Origin: a virus
Direction: 5' to 3' (one strand)
Length of the DNA stretch: 44,639 bases
IMG/VR virus record: IMGVR_UViG_3300048832_000028
Coordinates: 1 to 44,639 of that record
Under the pieces are notes generated by a model that saw only the letters and a list, made by a program, of their open reading frames with translations, was not told the DNA's origin and did no database searches. Shown here piece by piece: positions 1 to 40,098 of this stretch; position 1 is the stretch's first letter; each line of letters opens with the position of its first letter. Made by a program: the position numbers and the translations under genes.

Positions 1-367
1 CGCAGTCGACTGCGCGAGGCAGGTGGCGCACTTGACGGAAGACCCGGAACTGACGCACGCCGTTCTCGATGTATGCGTCGCGTATGCTGAATACGGCGAG
101 GAGTGGGCCGCCGCTCGGGACGCCGCTCTGGCCACCGCTTGGGACGCCGCTGGGGCCGCCGCTGGGGACGCCGCTCGGGCCACCGATCTGGCCACCGTTT
201 GGGACGCCGCTTGGGCCGCCGCTGTGGCCACCGTTTGGGACGCCGCTCGGGCCACCGTTTGGGACGCCGCTGGGGCCGCCGCTGGGGCCGCCGCTCAGGC
301 CGCCCTCCTCGCCCGCTACCTCAACGGCGCGGTGGGACCGCTCGTGGAAAGGGGCGGGGATGACTGA
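1..367 (+). CDS. Alanine-rich tetrapeptide-repeat protein, copy 1 (3' part, 5' end off the contig)
   Basis: Open at the left edge (frame starts at base 2) and ends in GAT GAC TGA at 367. Bases 1-127 are identical to 674-800 of the next gene, so this is the 3' end of a tandem paralogue. After the shared helical segment (LTEDPELTHAVLDVC) come about 16 units of 12 bp coding for [D/A]-[A/T]-[A/V/D]-X, where X is R, L, W, G, V or Q, then a conserved tail, LLARYLNGAVGPLVERGGDD. Its 5' end is very probably the fragment at 44542-44639 on the other contig end. Function is unknown. Similar Ala-rich repeat tails occur in other phage and bacterial proteins. Confidence 0.8.
   Translation, partial: AVDCARQVAHLTEDPELTHAVLDVCVAYAEYGEEWAAARDAALATAWDAAGAAAGDAARATDLATVWDAAWAAAVATVWDAARATVWDAAGAAAGAAAQAALLARYLNGAVGPLVERGGDD
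128..305 (+). repeat. 12-bp tandem repeats, copy 1
   Basis: In-frame 12-bp units close to GCCGCCGCTNGG or GACGCCGCTNGG. Most differences fall in the fourth codon, with TGG, CGG, GGG, CTG, GTG and CAG all present. A GCCACC-type unit recurs here that is absent from copy 2. The array is preceded by 127 bp identical to the other copy. Confidence 0.85.
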
Positions 368-374
368 CTACAAG
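341..374 (+). repeat. 34-bp direct repeat at gene junctions (also at 963-996)
   Basis: The same 34 bases occur at 341-374 and 963-996, spanning the last codons of each repeat gene, the ribosome binding site and the first five codons (MTDYK) of the next gene. This shared junction is what a duplication by unequal recombination would leave. It also explains why three successive genes, including the unrelated coiled-coil gene at 982, begin MTDYK. Confidence 0.8.
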
Positions 375-989
375 ACCTTCAACGGCACCGCCGGGGCCTA
401 CGGTCACGGTGACTACTCCGACTACATGCCGACCCAGAACGCAGACGGGACGTGGACGCCGGGTGAGTGGCTGCCGCCTGTGAAGCCGAGGCTGTGCGAG
501 TCCGGCTATCACTGGTGCGACGGTGAGTTGCAACTGCTCCGTCACCTCGGCGAAACCTGCTACGTCATCGAGCCCGACGGCGAGACGGTTCGCGGCGATG
601 ACAAGTGCGCGTCTGGGACCATCCGGCTGCTGTTCCCGGTGGAGGCGTACAACGAGACGAACCTACGGCTGTTCGCAGTCGACTGCGCGAGGCAGGTGGC
701 GCACTTGACGGAAGACCCGGAACTGACGCACGCCGTTCTCGATGTATGCGTCGCGTATGCTGAATACGGCGAGGAGTGGGCCGCCGCTCGGGACGCCGCT
801 GGGGTCGCCGCTGGTGCCGCCGCTCGGGCCGCCGCTGGGGCCGCCGCTGGTGCCGCCGCTCGGGACGCCGCTTGGGTCGCCGCTTGGGCCGCCGCTGGGG
901 ACGCCGCTTGGGACGCCCAATCCGACCTCCTCGCCCGTTACCTCAACGGCGAAGTGGGGCCGCTCGTGGAAAGGGGCGGGGATGACTGA
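360..989 (+). CDS. Alanine-rich tetrapeptide-repeat protein, copy 2 (complete)
   Basis: This is the full copy, 209 aa, starting MTDYKTFNGTAGAYG. The ATG at 360 overlaps the previous stop by 8 bases and follows GGAAAGGGGCGGGG. Residues 1 to about 115 form a compact Cys-containing domain with LCESGYHWC and DDKCASGTIRLL. About residues 116-145 are helical. Then come some 11 or 12 four-residue repeats (AAAR, DAAG, VAAG, DAAW and similar) and the tail LLARYLNGEVGPLVERGGDD. The N-terminal part resembles a widespread phage/bacterial family of unknown function, by motif memory only. The two copies differ mainly in the number and order of repeat units. No catalytic motif is visible. Confidence 0.85.
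   Translation: MTDYKTFNGTAGAYGHGDYSDYMPTQNADGTWTPGEWLPPVKPRLCESGYHWCDGELQLLRHLGETCYVIEPDGETVRGDDKCASGTIRLLFPVEAYNETNLRLFAVDCARQVAHLTEDPELTHAVLDVCVAYAEYGEEWAAARDAAGVAAGAAARAAAGAAAGAAARDAAWVAAWAAAGDAAWDAQSDLLARYLNGEVGPLVERGGDD
779..925 (+). repeat. 12-bp tandem repeats, copy 2
   Basis: About 11-12 units of the same 12-bp repeat seen upstream, in frame. Fourth codons are CGG, GGG, GGT and TGG (R, G, G, W). First codons are GCC, GAC or GTC. Order and number differ from copy 1 although the flanks are nearly identical. Confidence 0.85.
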
Positions 990-1539
990 CTACAAGGCTC
1001 TCTACGACGAGTGCCGTTCCCGGCGGGAGCGGGACCGGGAGCGGATTGCAGACCTCCAGCGCATCATCGGCAAGCAGGAGCAGGAACTAGTTGAGGCTGA
1101 CTTGAGGCTGCGCGAGGCCAACGCCCGCGCCGATGCCTGTCTCGCCGACGTTCCAGGGCGGTGGGAACTGGCGCAGAAACTGGAGCAGGCCGAGGCCGCG
1201 CTCAAGCGCGACGAGTGGTATCGACAGAACAAGCCCGAGGCGATGGAGGACTACAGGCTGGAGATTGATAGGCTCCGGGCCGCGCTGGCAGAGATGCGGA
1301 ACGTCGTCCTAGACACGCACCCGAAGGGATGCCCTTGCTGGGTCTGTGAAAGCGCCCGCGCCGAGGCCACGCTGGCTGCGGAGCGGGCGCGTGTGGAGCA
1401 GATGGAACCAGTGTGGCTCACGGCCATGATGGCGGTTCGCTTCTACCACGAACTCGGCAGCGAGTTCGACTGCGCTGGTGGGATGCGGTCGATTGCAGAA
1501 GCCGTCGACGCCACCCGCCCGGCCCCGGAGGAGGAGTGA
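982..1539 (+). CDS. Coiled-coil protein with CPCWVC motif
   Basis: 185 aa, starting at ATG 982 inside the end of the previous gene (8-base overlap). Residues 1 to about 105 are highly charged and helical, with heptad-like Glu/Leu/Arg spacing (DLQRIIGKQEQELVEADLRL), strongly suggesting a coiled coil. A short Cys motif (GCPCWVCES) follows, then more helix. It ends RPAPEEE, an ending nearly shared with the gene at 2127-2531. The first five residues (MTDYK) copy those of the upstream repeat gene. Function unknown; it belongs to a run of similarly built genes up to 3645. Confidence 0.8.
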   Translation: MTDYKALYDECRSRRERDRERIADLQRIIGKQEQELVEADLRLREANARADACLADVPGRWELAQKLEQAEAALKRDEWYRQNKPEAMEDYRLEIDRLRAALAEMRNVVLDTHPKGCPCWVCESARAEATLAAERARVEQMEPVWLTAMMAVRFYHELGSEFDCAGGMRSIAEAVDATRPAPEEE

Positions 1540-4066: not shown

Positions 4067-4393
4067 TTGAGTAAGTCTACCACCCCTGAAGAAACCGTAG
4101 CGCACGGCGTCGACCCGCTCGCCGACGCTCTCGACTGGCGGGCAAAGAACCCAGATGCGTTCGCCTACTTCCTGAGCGTCGCCACCAACGACATGAAGCA
4201 CGGCATCCCGCCATCGGCAGACTTCTGCGGCCACATGGTGCGCCGTTCGGGACTGCTGACGCGCAAGCCCGGCAGCCCGGTCGTGTTCAACGACCACCTG
4301 ACGAGCACGCTCGCCCGACTCTGCAAGCGCGACTACGGTATCCCGTTCAAGACACGCGAAGCGGCAGTCGACCGCTGGACGCGCACCGAATGA
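4067..4393 (+). CDS. Hypothetical protein preceding the initiator
   Basis: 108 aa. TTG 4067 is chosen because AGGAGG (4055-4060) sits at ideal spacing, whereas upstream in-frame starts lack a site and lie in the hairpin. Reads (M)SKSTTPEETVAHGVDPL, then DWRAKNPDAFAYFLSVA and a C-terminal helical, basic part (LARLCKRDYGIPFKTREAA). The pattern suggests a small DNA-binding or replication accessory protein, but no family is recognised. It overlaps the next ATG by 4 bases, implying translational coupling to the initiator gene. Confidence 0.72.
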   Translation: MSKSTTPEETVAHGVDPLADALDWRAKNPDAFAYFLSVATNDMKHGIPPSADFCGHMVRRSGLLTRKPGSPVVFNDHLTSTLARLCKRDYGIPFKTREAAVDRWTRTE

Positions 4394-5229
4394 GTCCCTG
4401 GCTCAAGGTCTACGACGATCTTCCCCGTCACCCCAAGACGACCCGCCTCTGTCGCGCACTGGGAGCGGATCGAAACACCGTGGTCGGGTCACTCATCTGT
4501 CTCTGGTCGTGGGCATCGACCTACGCCCAGGACGGCGACCTCACCCGCTTCACCAACCAGGACATCGCCGACGCCGCCGGCTGGGAAGGTGACGCCGGAG
4601 AACTCGTCAAGGCGATGAAGGACAGCGGGTTCCTGGACGGGCGAGTTATCCACAACTGGATGCACTACTCAGGTGCCTACTTCCATGACAAAGCCAGTGG
4701 AAAGAACCGCAACAAGAAATCCCTGCAAAATGCATCCGAGTCCCGGGGATTCCCCGGGGAATCCCCCGAAAGTCCCCCTCCTAAGAATAAGAAAGAGAAA
4801 GAGAAAGAGAAAGATCAAGAACAAGAGCGTTGTGCGCGAACACCGAAACCTGAGACCGTCTTCAGTACCGAGTTCTGGCCGCTCTGGCCTACCGGCGGAG
4901 CGCGGAAGCTGGCGCAGCAGCGCTTCCTCGCAGCGTCAGGAGAGGAGCGCACGCGCATCCTCGCTGCCGAGCGCCACTATGTAGCTGCCGTCGATGCGCT
5001 CGCGTTCACCGTTCGCGCTGAGAACTTCGTCGGCGGTCAGCGCTCCTACTACGAGGAGTGGGCGACAGGTCCACCGCCGCCGAACTCGCCGTGGTTCTCC
5101 CGCAACGGCAACGGCAAGCGGGAGCTCACGCCGCCGGCCCCCCGGCGCGATCTCTGCCCGGTGTGCGAAGCGGAGATGGTCTTCGACGGCGACGGCACGG
5201 CGAACCGGCACTGTCCGGTGTGCTCATGA
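4390..5229 (+). CDS. Replication initiator-like protein (DnaD/O-like organisation) with C-terminal zinc ribbon
   Basis: 279 aa. Residues 1-95 (MSPWLKVYDDLPRHPKT, ALGADRNTVVGSLICLWSWA, FTNQDIADAAGW, KAMKDSGFLD) look like the winged-helix N-terminus of phage replisome-organiser proteins that load helicase. Residues 115-145 are a low-complexity linker rich in Pro, Lys and Glu, with the run KKEKEKEKDQEQ. The last 25 residues carry CPVCEAEM and HCPVCS, a zinc ribbon. The DNA under the linker holds a perfect palindrome and a purine tract, so the gene may contain its own origin, as lambda O does. ATG 4390 overlaps the previous stop. Function by analogy. Confidence 0.7.
   Translation: MSPWLKVYDDLPRHPKTTRLCRALGADRNTVVGSLICLWSWASTYAQDGDLTRFTNQDIADAAGWEGDAGELVKAMKDSGFLDGRVIHNWMHYSGAYFHDKASGKNRNKKSLQNASESRGFPGESPESPPPKNKKEKEKEKDQEQERCARTPKPETVFSTEFWPLWPTGGARKLAQQRFLAASGEERTRILAAERHYVAAVDALAFTVRAENFVGGQRSYYEEWATGPPPPNSPWFSRNGNGKRELTPPAPRRDLCPVCEAEMVFDGDGTANRHCPVCS
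4745..4828 (+). other. Candidate replication origin inside the initiator gene
   Basis: GGGGATTCCCC (4745-4755) is followed directly by its reverse complement GGGGAATCCCC (4756-4766), a perfect 22-bp palindrome. After a C-rich stretch, 4784-4828 is almost pure purine and locally A-rich, with tandem AAAGAG units. Palindromic binding sites next to an AT-richer, strand-asymmetric purine run inside the initiator linker recall the layout of the lambda origin in gene O. This is inference from layout. Confidence 0.45.
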
Positions 5230-35006: not shown

Positions 35007-36776
35007 TCACCTGTCCCACGCGGGGTTCCGCACCATCTTGCCCTTGCCTCCCGGGGTGAACCACGACCTGAGAGTGTTGGTGGCGTTGCGGATCGGTATC
35101 TGGGCGAGCCACATCGCCATCACCACATCGTTCGTGCTCTTGGGGAAGACCAAGAGTTCTCCGATGAACTCCTCTGCCTTCTCCTGGTCGGACGGCTCCT
35201 TGTAGGGGATGCGGAAGCGCCCGTTCTGCATCATCTCGCTCATGCCGAAGACGCCGGCTATCGGATCGTGCTTGTTCGAGCCTGTCCACGAGGGCTTGAC
35301 GATGCCCGAGTCGATGTAGGGCTTCATGCGGTCGTTGTTGAGCAGCCAGAGGCCAAAGGCGTTCTTCTCGACGGTCGCCTGACGGTAGTGGTACTTCTCA
35401 TGTAGTCCTTCGATGCCGTAGAGCGGGTTCCCTTCGAGCAGATGGTCGAGCATGCGGTCGAAGTTGTCCTGCATCTTGCGGTAGTCGATGAGGTGGATGC
35501 GCTTCTCCTCGTCGGTCTTGTCGATGCCGAGGATCACATAGGCGGAGTGGGCGGAGAAGCGGCTCTTCGATCCGCTGGCCGGGTCGAATCCGCAGTACAG
35601 GTCCCATCCTTCTCCAAACTCTCCGAACGAACTCTCGCGGTCGAGACAACCGGGGTGCTGTACCCGTTGTCCGTTGGCTTCCTCCTCTTGCCCCCGTATC
35701 CACGCCTCACGAAATGCCATCTCCGACTCGTCGAAAGCGATGTTGCGGTAGCGTTTGTTGAAAGCGAGAGTGCCAATCGACTGCCTTTCCCTGTCGAGGT
35801 CTTCCACCGTGAGCATCTTGTCCGAGAGCGAGACGGTCTGCTTCTTGTCCCTGAAGCAGTCGAACTTGATGCAGGTGAAGGTCGGGTCGCGCATCAGCAT
35901 CGCGTAAAGGGCTTCGGGGTGGAAGATGGTGCCGACGACGCCAGTACCCCAGTAGCGTGACGTGCGTGACCAGTTGAGACGCTTGGGGATGAGCACGTTT
36001 CCCTTCTTGTCCTTCGGCCAGATGGGACGCGCCGAGGTCAGAGGCCCGATCCGCACCCAGTGCAGGAGCTTCTGGCGGGTATCGGGGGTGTTGGCCGTGT
36101 CCGGGGTCTCGATGTCGTCCATCAGCACCCTGTCAGAGCGCTTGCCCAGGGCGGCGTGGGAGTTGGTGCCGAAGAACTCGGCGTTCTCGCGCACGTCCCT
36201 GTACTGGCGCTGCTGGACCGAGAAAGCGTTGTTCGACCAGGAGACGTTCTTGTCTTCGGGCCGGAACTTGCCGAAATCGGCGATCAGCTTGGGGTTCTGG
36301 AGCTCCTGGCGGATGTTGGTCGAGAAGGAGAACGCCTCGGTCTCGTTCTTGCCGATGTACTGCATCCGCGAGTTGGGGTTGTCGCAGACTTCCATGACCG
36401 GGAGCACCCGCGTGGAGACGATGGTGGTCTTGCCGAAGCCGGCCGGGACGAGGATGAGGACGTTGGGCTTCTCCCAGTAGTAGGGCGAGACGCCCTCCTT
36501 CGGTTCACCGCGCGTGGTGACGTGGCGAATCCAGCCGTTCTCGAACATCCAGTCCATGTGGTTGTCGTTGACGAAGCGCCAGACTTCCTCATCGGAGTGG
36601 AAGCGGCCACGGAGCATGCGCAGGATGAAGACCTGATAGGGGTCGAGGTCGAGGTCGAGGTAGTGGGCCGCGAACAGTTGCTCGGCCATCGGCGAGTCGA
36701 GCATCAGCCACTTGAACTGGGATTCGTCGTCGAGGGTGGCGAACGCCTTGTCCGGGTCGACGGCCGTGCTAGCCAT
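35007..36776 (-). CDS. Terminase large subunit
   Basis: 589 aa. Walker A-like PAGFGKTT at residues 111-118, Walker B RVLMDDIE at 216-223. In the nuclease domain D398 (YCGFDPASGSKS), E457 or E470 (ATVEKNA), and D550 (TNDVVMAMW). It powers DNA packaging through the portal and cuts the concatemer. The small subunit overlaps by 8 bases upstream; portal follows after a 55-base gap. Confidence 0.93.
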   Translation of the reverse strand: MASTAVDPDKAFATLDDESQFKWLMLDSPMAEQLFAAHYLDLDLDPYQVFILRMLRGRFHSDEEVWRFVNDNHMDWMFENGWIRHVTTRGEPKEGVSPYYWEKPNVLILVPAGFGKTTIVSTRVLPVMEVCDNPNSRMQYIGKNETEAFSFSTNIRQELQNPKLIADFGKFRPEDKNVSWSNNAFSVQQRQYRDVRENAEFFGTNSHAALGKRSDRVLMDDIETPDTANTPDTRQKLLHWVRIGPLTSARPIWPKDKKGNVLIPKRLNWSRTSRYWGTGVVGTIFHPEALYAMLMRDPTFTCIKFDCFRDKKQTVSLSDKMLTVEDLDRERQSIGTLAFNKRYRNIAFDESEMAFREAWIRGQEEEANGQRVQHPGCLDRESSFGEFGEGWDLYCGFDPASGSKSRFSAHSAYVILGIDKTDEEKRIHLIDYRKMQDNFDRMLDHLLEGNPLYGIEGLHEKYHYRQATVEKNAFGLWLLNNDRMKPYIDSGIVKPSWTGSNKHDPIAGVFGMSEMMQNGRFRIPYKEPSDQEKAEEFIGELLVFPKSTNDVVMAMWLAQIPIRNATNTLRSWFTPGGKGKMVRNPAWDR

Positions 36777-39453: not shown

Positions 39454-39481
39454 TGTCGGCCTCCTTATCGGCTGTAAAGTC

Positions 39482-39511
39482 ATTCTACCGCAGGTAGGCG
39501 TTCGACGTCAA
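39482..39511 (-). promoter_or_regulatory. Promoter for the minus-strand small-gene cluster
   Basis: On the minus strand TTGACG (39511-39506), spacer of 18 bases, TAGAAT (39487-39482), then AAGGAGG and GTG 39453. Five of six -35 bases match TTGACA, and TAGAAT has the TAnnnT core. Confidence 0.75.
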
Positions 39512-39621
39512 GGGTACCGGCTGTACGCGCACAGGCGTACCGGCTGTCTTTTCCCCTCTGAAAATATTTTGGGGGGGCCTGTTCTGGGGGCTCCAGAGCG
39601 ATGCAATATCGGCTCCTTGTG

Positions 39622-39650
39622 TGTCCGGGGTTGTCCGGGGTTGTGGATAC
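39622..39650 (+). repeat. Tandem 10-mers and DnaA-box-like site
   Basis: TGTCCGGGGT at 39622-39631 and again 39632-39641, then TGTGGATAC, which differs by one base from TGTGGATAA (the complement of the DnaA box TTATCCACA). Iteron-like direct repeats next to a DnaA-like box hint at a replication element. Weak because there are only two full copies. Confidence 0.35.
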
Positions 39651-39691
39651 CCACCATCTCTTCCCCGGGGGTGGGAGGGAGTCACGCTTCA

Positions 39692-39706
39692 AATACCCCG
39701 GGTATT
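39692..39706. promoter_or_regulatory. Perfect inverted repeat (operator candidate)
   Basis: AATACCC, one central C, GGGTATT, a perfect 7-bp inverted repeat suitable for a dimeric repressor such as the RHH or HTH proteins encoded here. It is flanked on each side by AGTCAC (39680-39685 and 39710-39715). Confidence 0.45.
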
Positions 39707-39810
39707 GATAGTCACTGGATTGTGCCCATGTGCAGGGGAATCCTCCCCAGTGGATCTCCAGCTAGCCAGGGCTGGGCAGTCCCCTGGGTCCCGCCTGCGT
39801 GGGCAGTCAC

Positions 39811-39830
39811 TTGTCCCGCATTCTGGACAA
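39811..39830. promoter_or_regulatory. Inverted repeat TTGTCC-N8-GGACAA
   Basis: 6-bp arms with an 8-base spacer, the same geometry as the operator-like repeat over the early promoter at 40032-40051 but with a different sequence. Both could bind a similar dimeric regulator type. Confidence 0.4.
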
Positions 39831-40029
39831 TAGAACAGTCGTTCAAGGTTAAATGACCGTTTAATCATTCTCATCACCGAGGGTGCCGGGTGGCGATCTC
39901 TTTACTTCCCCTTCCCTACCTCTTGCCTTCCCCTACAGAATGGGCCACCCGCCGGCCGCAGCTTGTGGCCCCTCGCTCCGCACCTGCCGCGTCCGTTGAA
40001 TGAACGTTCTGCCGAATCGGACGACTTGC

Positions 40030-40057
40030 TTGCACACTGTCTAAGGTGTGCTAATGT
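40030..40057 (+). promoter_or_regulatory. Early plus-strand promoter with overlapping inverted-repeat operator
   Basis: TTGCAC (40030-40035), 16-base spacer, TAATGT (40052-40057) with extended -10 TGC just before. GCACAC (40032-40037) and GTGTGC (40046-40051) form an inverted repeat with 8-base spacing that spans -35 to -10. A repressor bound here would block RNA polymerase. The first gene starts at 40099 with GAGGAGG upstream. Confidence 0.68.
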
Positions 40058-40098
40058 GGGTAGCGTAGTGGTATCAACCCCGACTGAGGAGGCCCACC

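Follow-up and report, generated by a model that had tools for sequence, protein, structure and literature searches.

A putative replication origin within the initiator gene of an uncultivated phage: a phased box array and a purine tract in the codons of a disordered linker

The replication origin of phage lambda lies within gene O and comprises iterons bound by the O protein followed by a 40-bp A+T-rich region with purines almost all on one strand (PMC5043065); O proteins also bind single-stranded DNA (PMC7466680). Examination of the lambda iteron coordinates and sequence placed the iterons inside gene O, with the purine-asymmetric region following them. Among lambdoid phages, annotated gp15 sites of phi80 are located within gene 15, and P22 gene 18 carries an origin annotated by similarity. 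In SPP1, oriL lies inside gene 38 and consists of direct repeats and a DNA unwinding element (DUE) (PMC6316719). A further point of comparison is bacterial oriC, where a DnaA box is adjoined by the DnaA-trio, a series of repeated 3'-(G/A)AT-5' triplets (PMC10797057).

Here the analysis covered a 44,639-nt stretch of viral DNA (IMG/VR record IMGVR_UViG_3300048832_000028, hereafter the window). With a probability of about 0.82, positions 4738-4827 are considered to be the replication origin of this phage, an intragenic iteron-plus-DUE located within the gene that encodes the phage's own initiator. The gene family, the box array, the tract, DNA-level selection and the same-place architecture in relatives are established at the level of sequence, while binding, melting, helicase loading and origin use in this phage are inferred, without experiment. 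An origin within the initiator gene, placed as in lambda, had been proposed in a first-pass annotation of this DNA; this is supported by the PHROG families matched, the disordered linker, the arrays of relatives and the known layouts of lambda, phi80 and SPP1. The source is suggested by sequence to be an unsampled phage, perhaps of actinobacteria; a terminase-like protein encoded at 35007-36776 (minus strand) shares only ~24-30% identity with its best matches, nearly all from Streptomyces phages.

The gene at 4390..5229 (plus strand) encodes a replication initiator of 279 aa with an N-terminal domain, a disordered linker, a helical C-terminal part and a Cys-rich terminal tail. Residues 4-163 matched phrog_9474 ("replication initiation protein", E 3.8e-34), so that the profile match spans the N-terminal domain as family membership requires, and phrog_2509 and phrog_3926, both annotated with the same term, were matched as well. 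The AlphaFold2 model showed a pLDDT of ~97 for residues 11-90 and a long helix up to residue 118; residues ~121-168, encoded by the palindrome and tract codons described below, were of low confidence and are presumably disordered. The element thus lies between domains of its initiator, as in lambda, phi80 and P22. The protein had been annotated as DnaD/O-like; a family profile searched against the PDB matched DnaD chains (8ojj, E 2.7e-4). Homology to lambda O is not supported: a Pfam search with the 4390 protein gave no match at E<1, and the PHROG matches are to non-O initiator families. NCBIfam likewise provided no model, a PDB fold search with the AlphaFold2 model returned nothing significant (no solved relative), and the single protein used as query retrieved no relatives. 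Matches of the model among predicted viral structures included a primosomal protein and a replisome organizer. No helicase loader was recognised among the gene neighbours and, unlike in lambda, no P-like neighbour was recognised near the gene.

Within the linker codons, positions 4745-4766 form a perfect 22-bp palindrome with arms GGGGATTCCCC and GGGGAATCCCC and zero gap, as first annotated, and a scan of the whole 44.6-kb window found no second perfect palindrome of this length; first-order Markov sequences of window length contained 0.017 on average. When the synonymous codons of the linker were resampled with phage codon usage, an 11-nt arm arose in 1 of 10,000 trials (P ~1e-4), so that the palindrome exceeds what the protein requires. 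The palindrome does not stand alone, as had been assumed, but sits within an array of boxes. Five RRDTCCC boxes start at 4717, 4738, 4748, 4759 and 4770, two of them fused into the palindrome, and the only cluster of at least three such boxes within 45 nt in the window is this array. The motif was defined post hoc, once the array had been inspected; in a motif-free test on the window gene, the 72 nt preceding the tract held more repeated 6-mers than synonymous shuffles did (P 0.0025, the lowest value attainable in that test). The iteron-like array proper (4738..4776, plus strand) has spacings of 10, 11 and 11 bp and shares its position with the box arrays of relatives, whereas box 0 (AAATCCC, 4717..4723, plus strand) is outlying, 21 bp or two helical turns upstream of box 1, and is the weakest assignment. 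As in lambda, the repeated sites precede an A+T-rich region that is purine-asymmetric on the coding strand; unlike the palindromic 18-19-bp iterons of lambda, ~20 bp apart, the boxes here are short and 10-11 bp apart. The array is of the initiator-bound kind at sequence level only: the boxes are inferred, without binding data, to be initiator-binding sites, and the palindrome at the core of the array is inferred to be a dimer site.

The tract at 4783..4827 (plus strand) is an A-rich (AAAGAG)n purine repeat with the hexamer unit AGAAAG/AAAGAG and encodes KNKKEKEKEKDQEQE. Purines account for 41/45 positions, with a longest uninterrupted run of 26 nt (4789-4814), and the tract is both the strongest purine segment and the lowest-GC 45-nt segment of the entire 44.6 kb (GC about 29-31% vs ~64% for the window). 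The purine- and A-rich run encoding a charged K/E linker that had been annotated is therefore present, and downstream of the palindrome as described, except that it starts 16 nt past it and not immediately after. One explanation would be that the tract merely codes for a charged flexible linker and that a GC-rich genome produced the palindrome by chance. The linker is indeed predicted to be disordered and, since K and E codons are purine-only, the purine run of the window follows from the residues; purine content alone is thus no evidence and codon choice is the informative quantity. AAA encodes 4/6 Lys in the tract vs 6.5% phage-wide (P 2.4e-4), A/T-ending codons number 9/15 vs 2.0 expected (P 1.4e-5) and tract GC is 31% vs 47% under synonymous resampling (P 5e-5), the codon usage reference being long ORFs picked by hand. 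The earlier view that protein constraint is low here and a DNA function plausible agrees with the AlphaFold2 disorder and with a codon choice beyond the needs of the peptide. An adjoining A+T-rich region with purines on one strand, as in lambda, is provided by 4783-4827, which is inferred to be the DUE or helicase entry site; unlike that of lambda, it is a short-period purine repeat. Double-strand boxes followed by short tandem units at a fixed distance also recall the DnaA-box/DnaA-trio arrangement of oriC, but the units here are 5-6-nt purine repeats, so that the triplet pattern of the trio is not met by this hexamer tract, and no AAA+ initiator was recognised.

The association between tract and gene was examined in both directions. 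Scanning viral contigs with a (GAGAA)n 23-mer gave at least ~120 loci; nearly all tracts listed were on the sense strand of an ORF of ~250 aa, often ~115-150 residues from its start, and among the matches listed many of these ORFs begin MAGDWIK. From the matches listed, 98 non-redundant loci were selected for a (GAGAA)n tract inside an ORF, of which phrog_9474 matched 80/98 and phrog_2509 76/98, a figure to which the tract itself could contribute in part. Inverted repeats (arms of at least 7) occurred 20-40 nt upstream of the tract in 48/98 of the loci listed, mostly centred at -22, most other bins holding 0-5, and a smaller peak was found ~240 nt upstream. The latter corresponds to a further inverted pair of boxes, GTAACGCTnnnAGCGTTAC, in N-domain codons coding GNAxSVT (e.g. 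L006, L010), possibly an extra initiator site or an autoregulatory operator; no such pair was seen in the window.

In the opposite direction, queries restricted to the N-terminal 110 residues retrieved 160 loci, giving 100 non-redundant genes; the seeds were largely tract-bearing, but the retrieved genes were not chosen for a tract. A purine tract was present at the same place in the linker in 92/100 of these initiator genes and repeated with a DNA period of 5, out of step with the codons, in 84/100. Arg codons in the charged tract peptide were AGR 183 : CGN 6, as compared with 378 : 1249 elsewhere; an Arg-codon count within pure purine runs was discarded as circular in favour of this peptide-defined one. 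Because of the period of 5 and the AGR-skewed Arg codons, selection is read from these sequences as acting on the DNA, beyond the linker peptide alone. The commonest positions of the 6-mer boxes were -42 and -31 for one orientation and -18 and -7 for the other, the last box and the tract nearly touching. Box sequence varied from phage to phage but was concerted within each (GCGGAC, CGTTAC, GCGTGAC, CGTCTAC), the pattern that sites recognised by a cognate protein would be expected to show. A purely peptide-driven origin of these features is thus very improbable: it is contradicted by codon choice in window and family, by a DNA period of 5, not divisible by 3, by concerted box arrays at fixed spacing and by a synonymous-shuffle repeat test significant at P<=0.05 in 72/95 genes.

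Among the nearest relatives, 45 non-redundant genes retrieved with the window's own branch, some showed the same order of elements without the same bases. In the high-GC loci L259, L266, L273, L274 and L292, box arrays precede (GGAGA)n-type tracts, with ~eight TGTCGCC-like copies, mostly in the same direction, ahead of the tract in L292, and an actinomycete MAG (L597) has an arrangement like that of L273. Bacillota relatives (e.g. L253, L256, L589-L594) have neither tract nor boxes within the gene, so the element is not universal across the protein family. Arg codons were unbiased (9 : 13) in the small number of charged peptides that this set contains, which serves as an internal control. The exact 22-mer palindrome was absent from 2.9 million viral contigs, no close relative sharing the box sequence of the window was found, and the spacing and orientation of the window boxes depart from the commonest 2+2 inverted layout. 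Conservation of the palindrome, proposed earlier as a check, hence fails for the exact bases and holds for the layout, with boxes and then a tract at the same codons. Relatives that keep the amino acids and lose the palindrome, which would have counted as refutation, were not seen, as neither linker residues nor bases are kept; judged from these genes, the architecture is conserved where present and the base sequence is not. The same comparison bears on whether the element acts in RNA, as an mRNA hairpin and purine run governing translation or termination. A palindrome without mismatches can fold into a hairpin once transcribed; however, single-strand folding was no stabler than that of shuffles (z -0.43 and -0.13; DNA parameters, either strand), and in some relatives, such as L292, the boxes are mostly direct repeats, so that a hairpin is not the conserved feature and this explanation is barely tenable.

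Inverted box pairs are typical of operators, and intragenic binding can block transcription. The boxes, which resemble such operators, could accordingly be bound solely to control transcription of the initiator gene, with the true origin elsewhere. This would leave unexplained the adjacent low-stability purine tract and the constant spacing that separates it, in the family, from the last box, and is held to be quite unlikely as the sole function, although operator and origin roles are not mutually exclusive.

A different location has also to be weighed. An apparently non-coding divergent region between the leftward and rightward gene blocks (39480-40098) shows short repeats, low GC, a pyrimidine run and a near-match to the boxes, and is a candidate for a control region or second origin. 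Were it the main or second origin, with the intragenic element secondary (cf. oriL/oriR of SPP1), this would fit with the second-lowest GC segment (39827-39871, 0.33), the pyrimidine run at 39897-39934, GGGGAATCCTC at 39735 as the only one-mismatch box copy outside the gene, and the shift in gene orientation and skew near 37-40 kb. A phased box array was looked for there and was absent, however, window box matches at <=2 mismatches were at chance level, and one promoter-like minus-strand match suggests a control region, so that this location is regarded as unlikely. The GC-skew switch near 4.8 kb put forward as a check on the intragenic origin was not borne out, no origin-type switch of the expected sign being found; the coding-strand GC skew is below zero whichever strand a gene occupies, so the profile tracks gene orientation and is uninformative for the origin. 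Separately, a gene segment at the left end of the window (1-1000) is duplicated and contains tandem repeats of 12 bp (arrays 105-304 and 780-917). In each copy, one frame encodes A/W/D-rich repeats and a different frame PLGTPLGPP repeats; the contig begins within one copy.

For the favoured reading of 4738-4827 as an origin, the following mechanism is proposed. The N-terminal domain of the initiator would bind the boxes that surround the palindrome in helical phase, the bound initiator would wrap or bend the DNA and open the adjoining A-rich purine tract as DUE, and the helicase would be loaded at the opened tract via the C-terminal part or by a host or phage loader. By analogy, the locus is taken to work like the origins of lambda, phi80 and SPP1 without membership of the O family, binding, melting and loading being inferred. 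It resembles SPP1 oriL in having repeats and an AT-rich DUE inside the gene of an origin-binding protein (the replisome organizer, gene 38). A difference is that SPP1 possesses oriR as a second origin and gp39 as a dedicated loader. The arrangement seen here follows the lambda plan, with boxes that are short and phased and a purine repeat specific to the initiator family; it recurs in initiator genes of many unrelated phages and is read as a widespread variant of lambda-type origins. Literature searches for the tract peptide or the repeat strings found no description; subscription literature was outside the search and a prior description is possible.

Other initiator families carry differing purine units (GGAAA, AAAGAG, GGAGA). 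Genes marked by the (AAAGAG)n repeat are of DUF6291, DnaD-like and other initiator-like types, apart from a few non-initiator matches, and (GGAAA)n marks Lin1244-like and MARIRTIKPEFW initiators. The latter had been chosen as a control pentamer and turned out to extend the finding, with 89/99 non-redundant loci in sense ORFs, chiefly initiator genes of other families, which leaves no true negative-control repeat. In the 66 nt before (AAAGAG)n and (GGAAA)n tracts, repeated 6-mers exceeded those of control stretches. It is conceivable, though somewhat short of an even chance, that several phage initiator families share an origin grammar in which phased double-strand boxes are combined with a short-period purine repeat (GAGAA/GGAAA/GGAGA/AAAGAG) that would act as a sequence-specific single-strand loading element, a counterpart of the DnaA-trio, written in linker codons.

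The residues of these linkers (EEKRREEKRR, GKERKGKER, KEKEKE) appear to be dictated by the function of the DNA, so it would be a mistake to treat such peptides as protein motifs. The half-site differs among MAGDWIK-family phages (L034, L044, L047, L048 and others: GCGGAC, GCGTTAC, GCGTGAC, CGTCTAC), and this variation would let the recognition residues of the N-terminal domain be mapped via covariation. For most phages the replication origin has yet to be identified; if the combination of boxes and purine repeat marks origins, those of many temperate and metagenomic phages could be located from sequence and directly tested, and if the common grammar holds true, phage origins would be readable from sequence alone.
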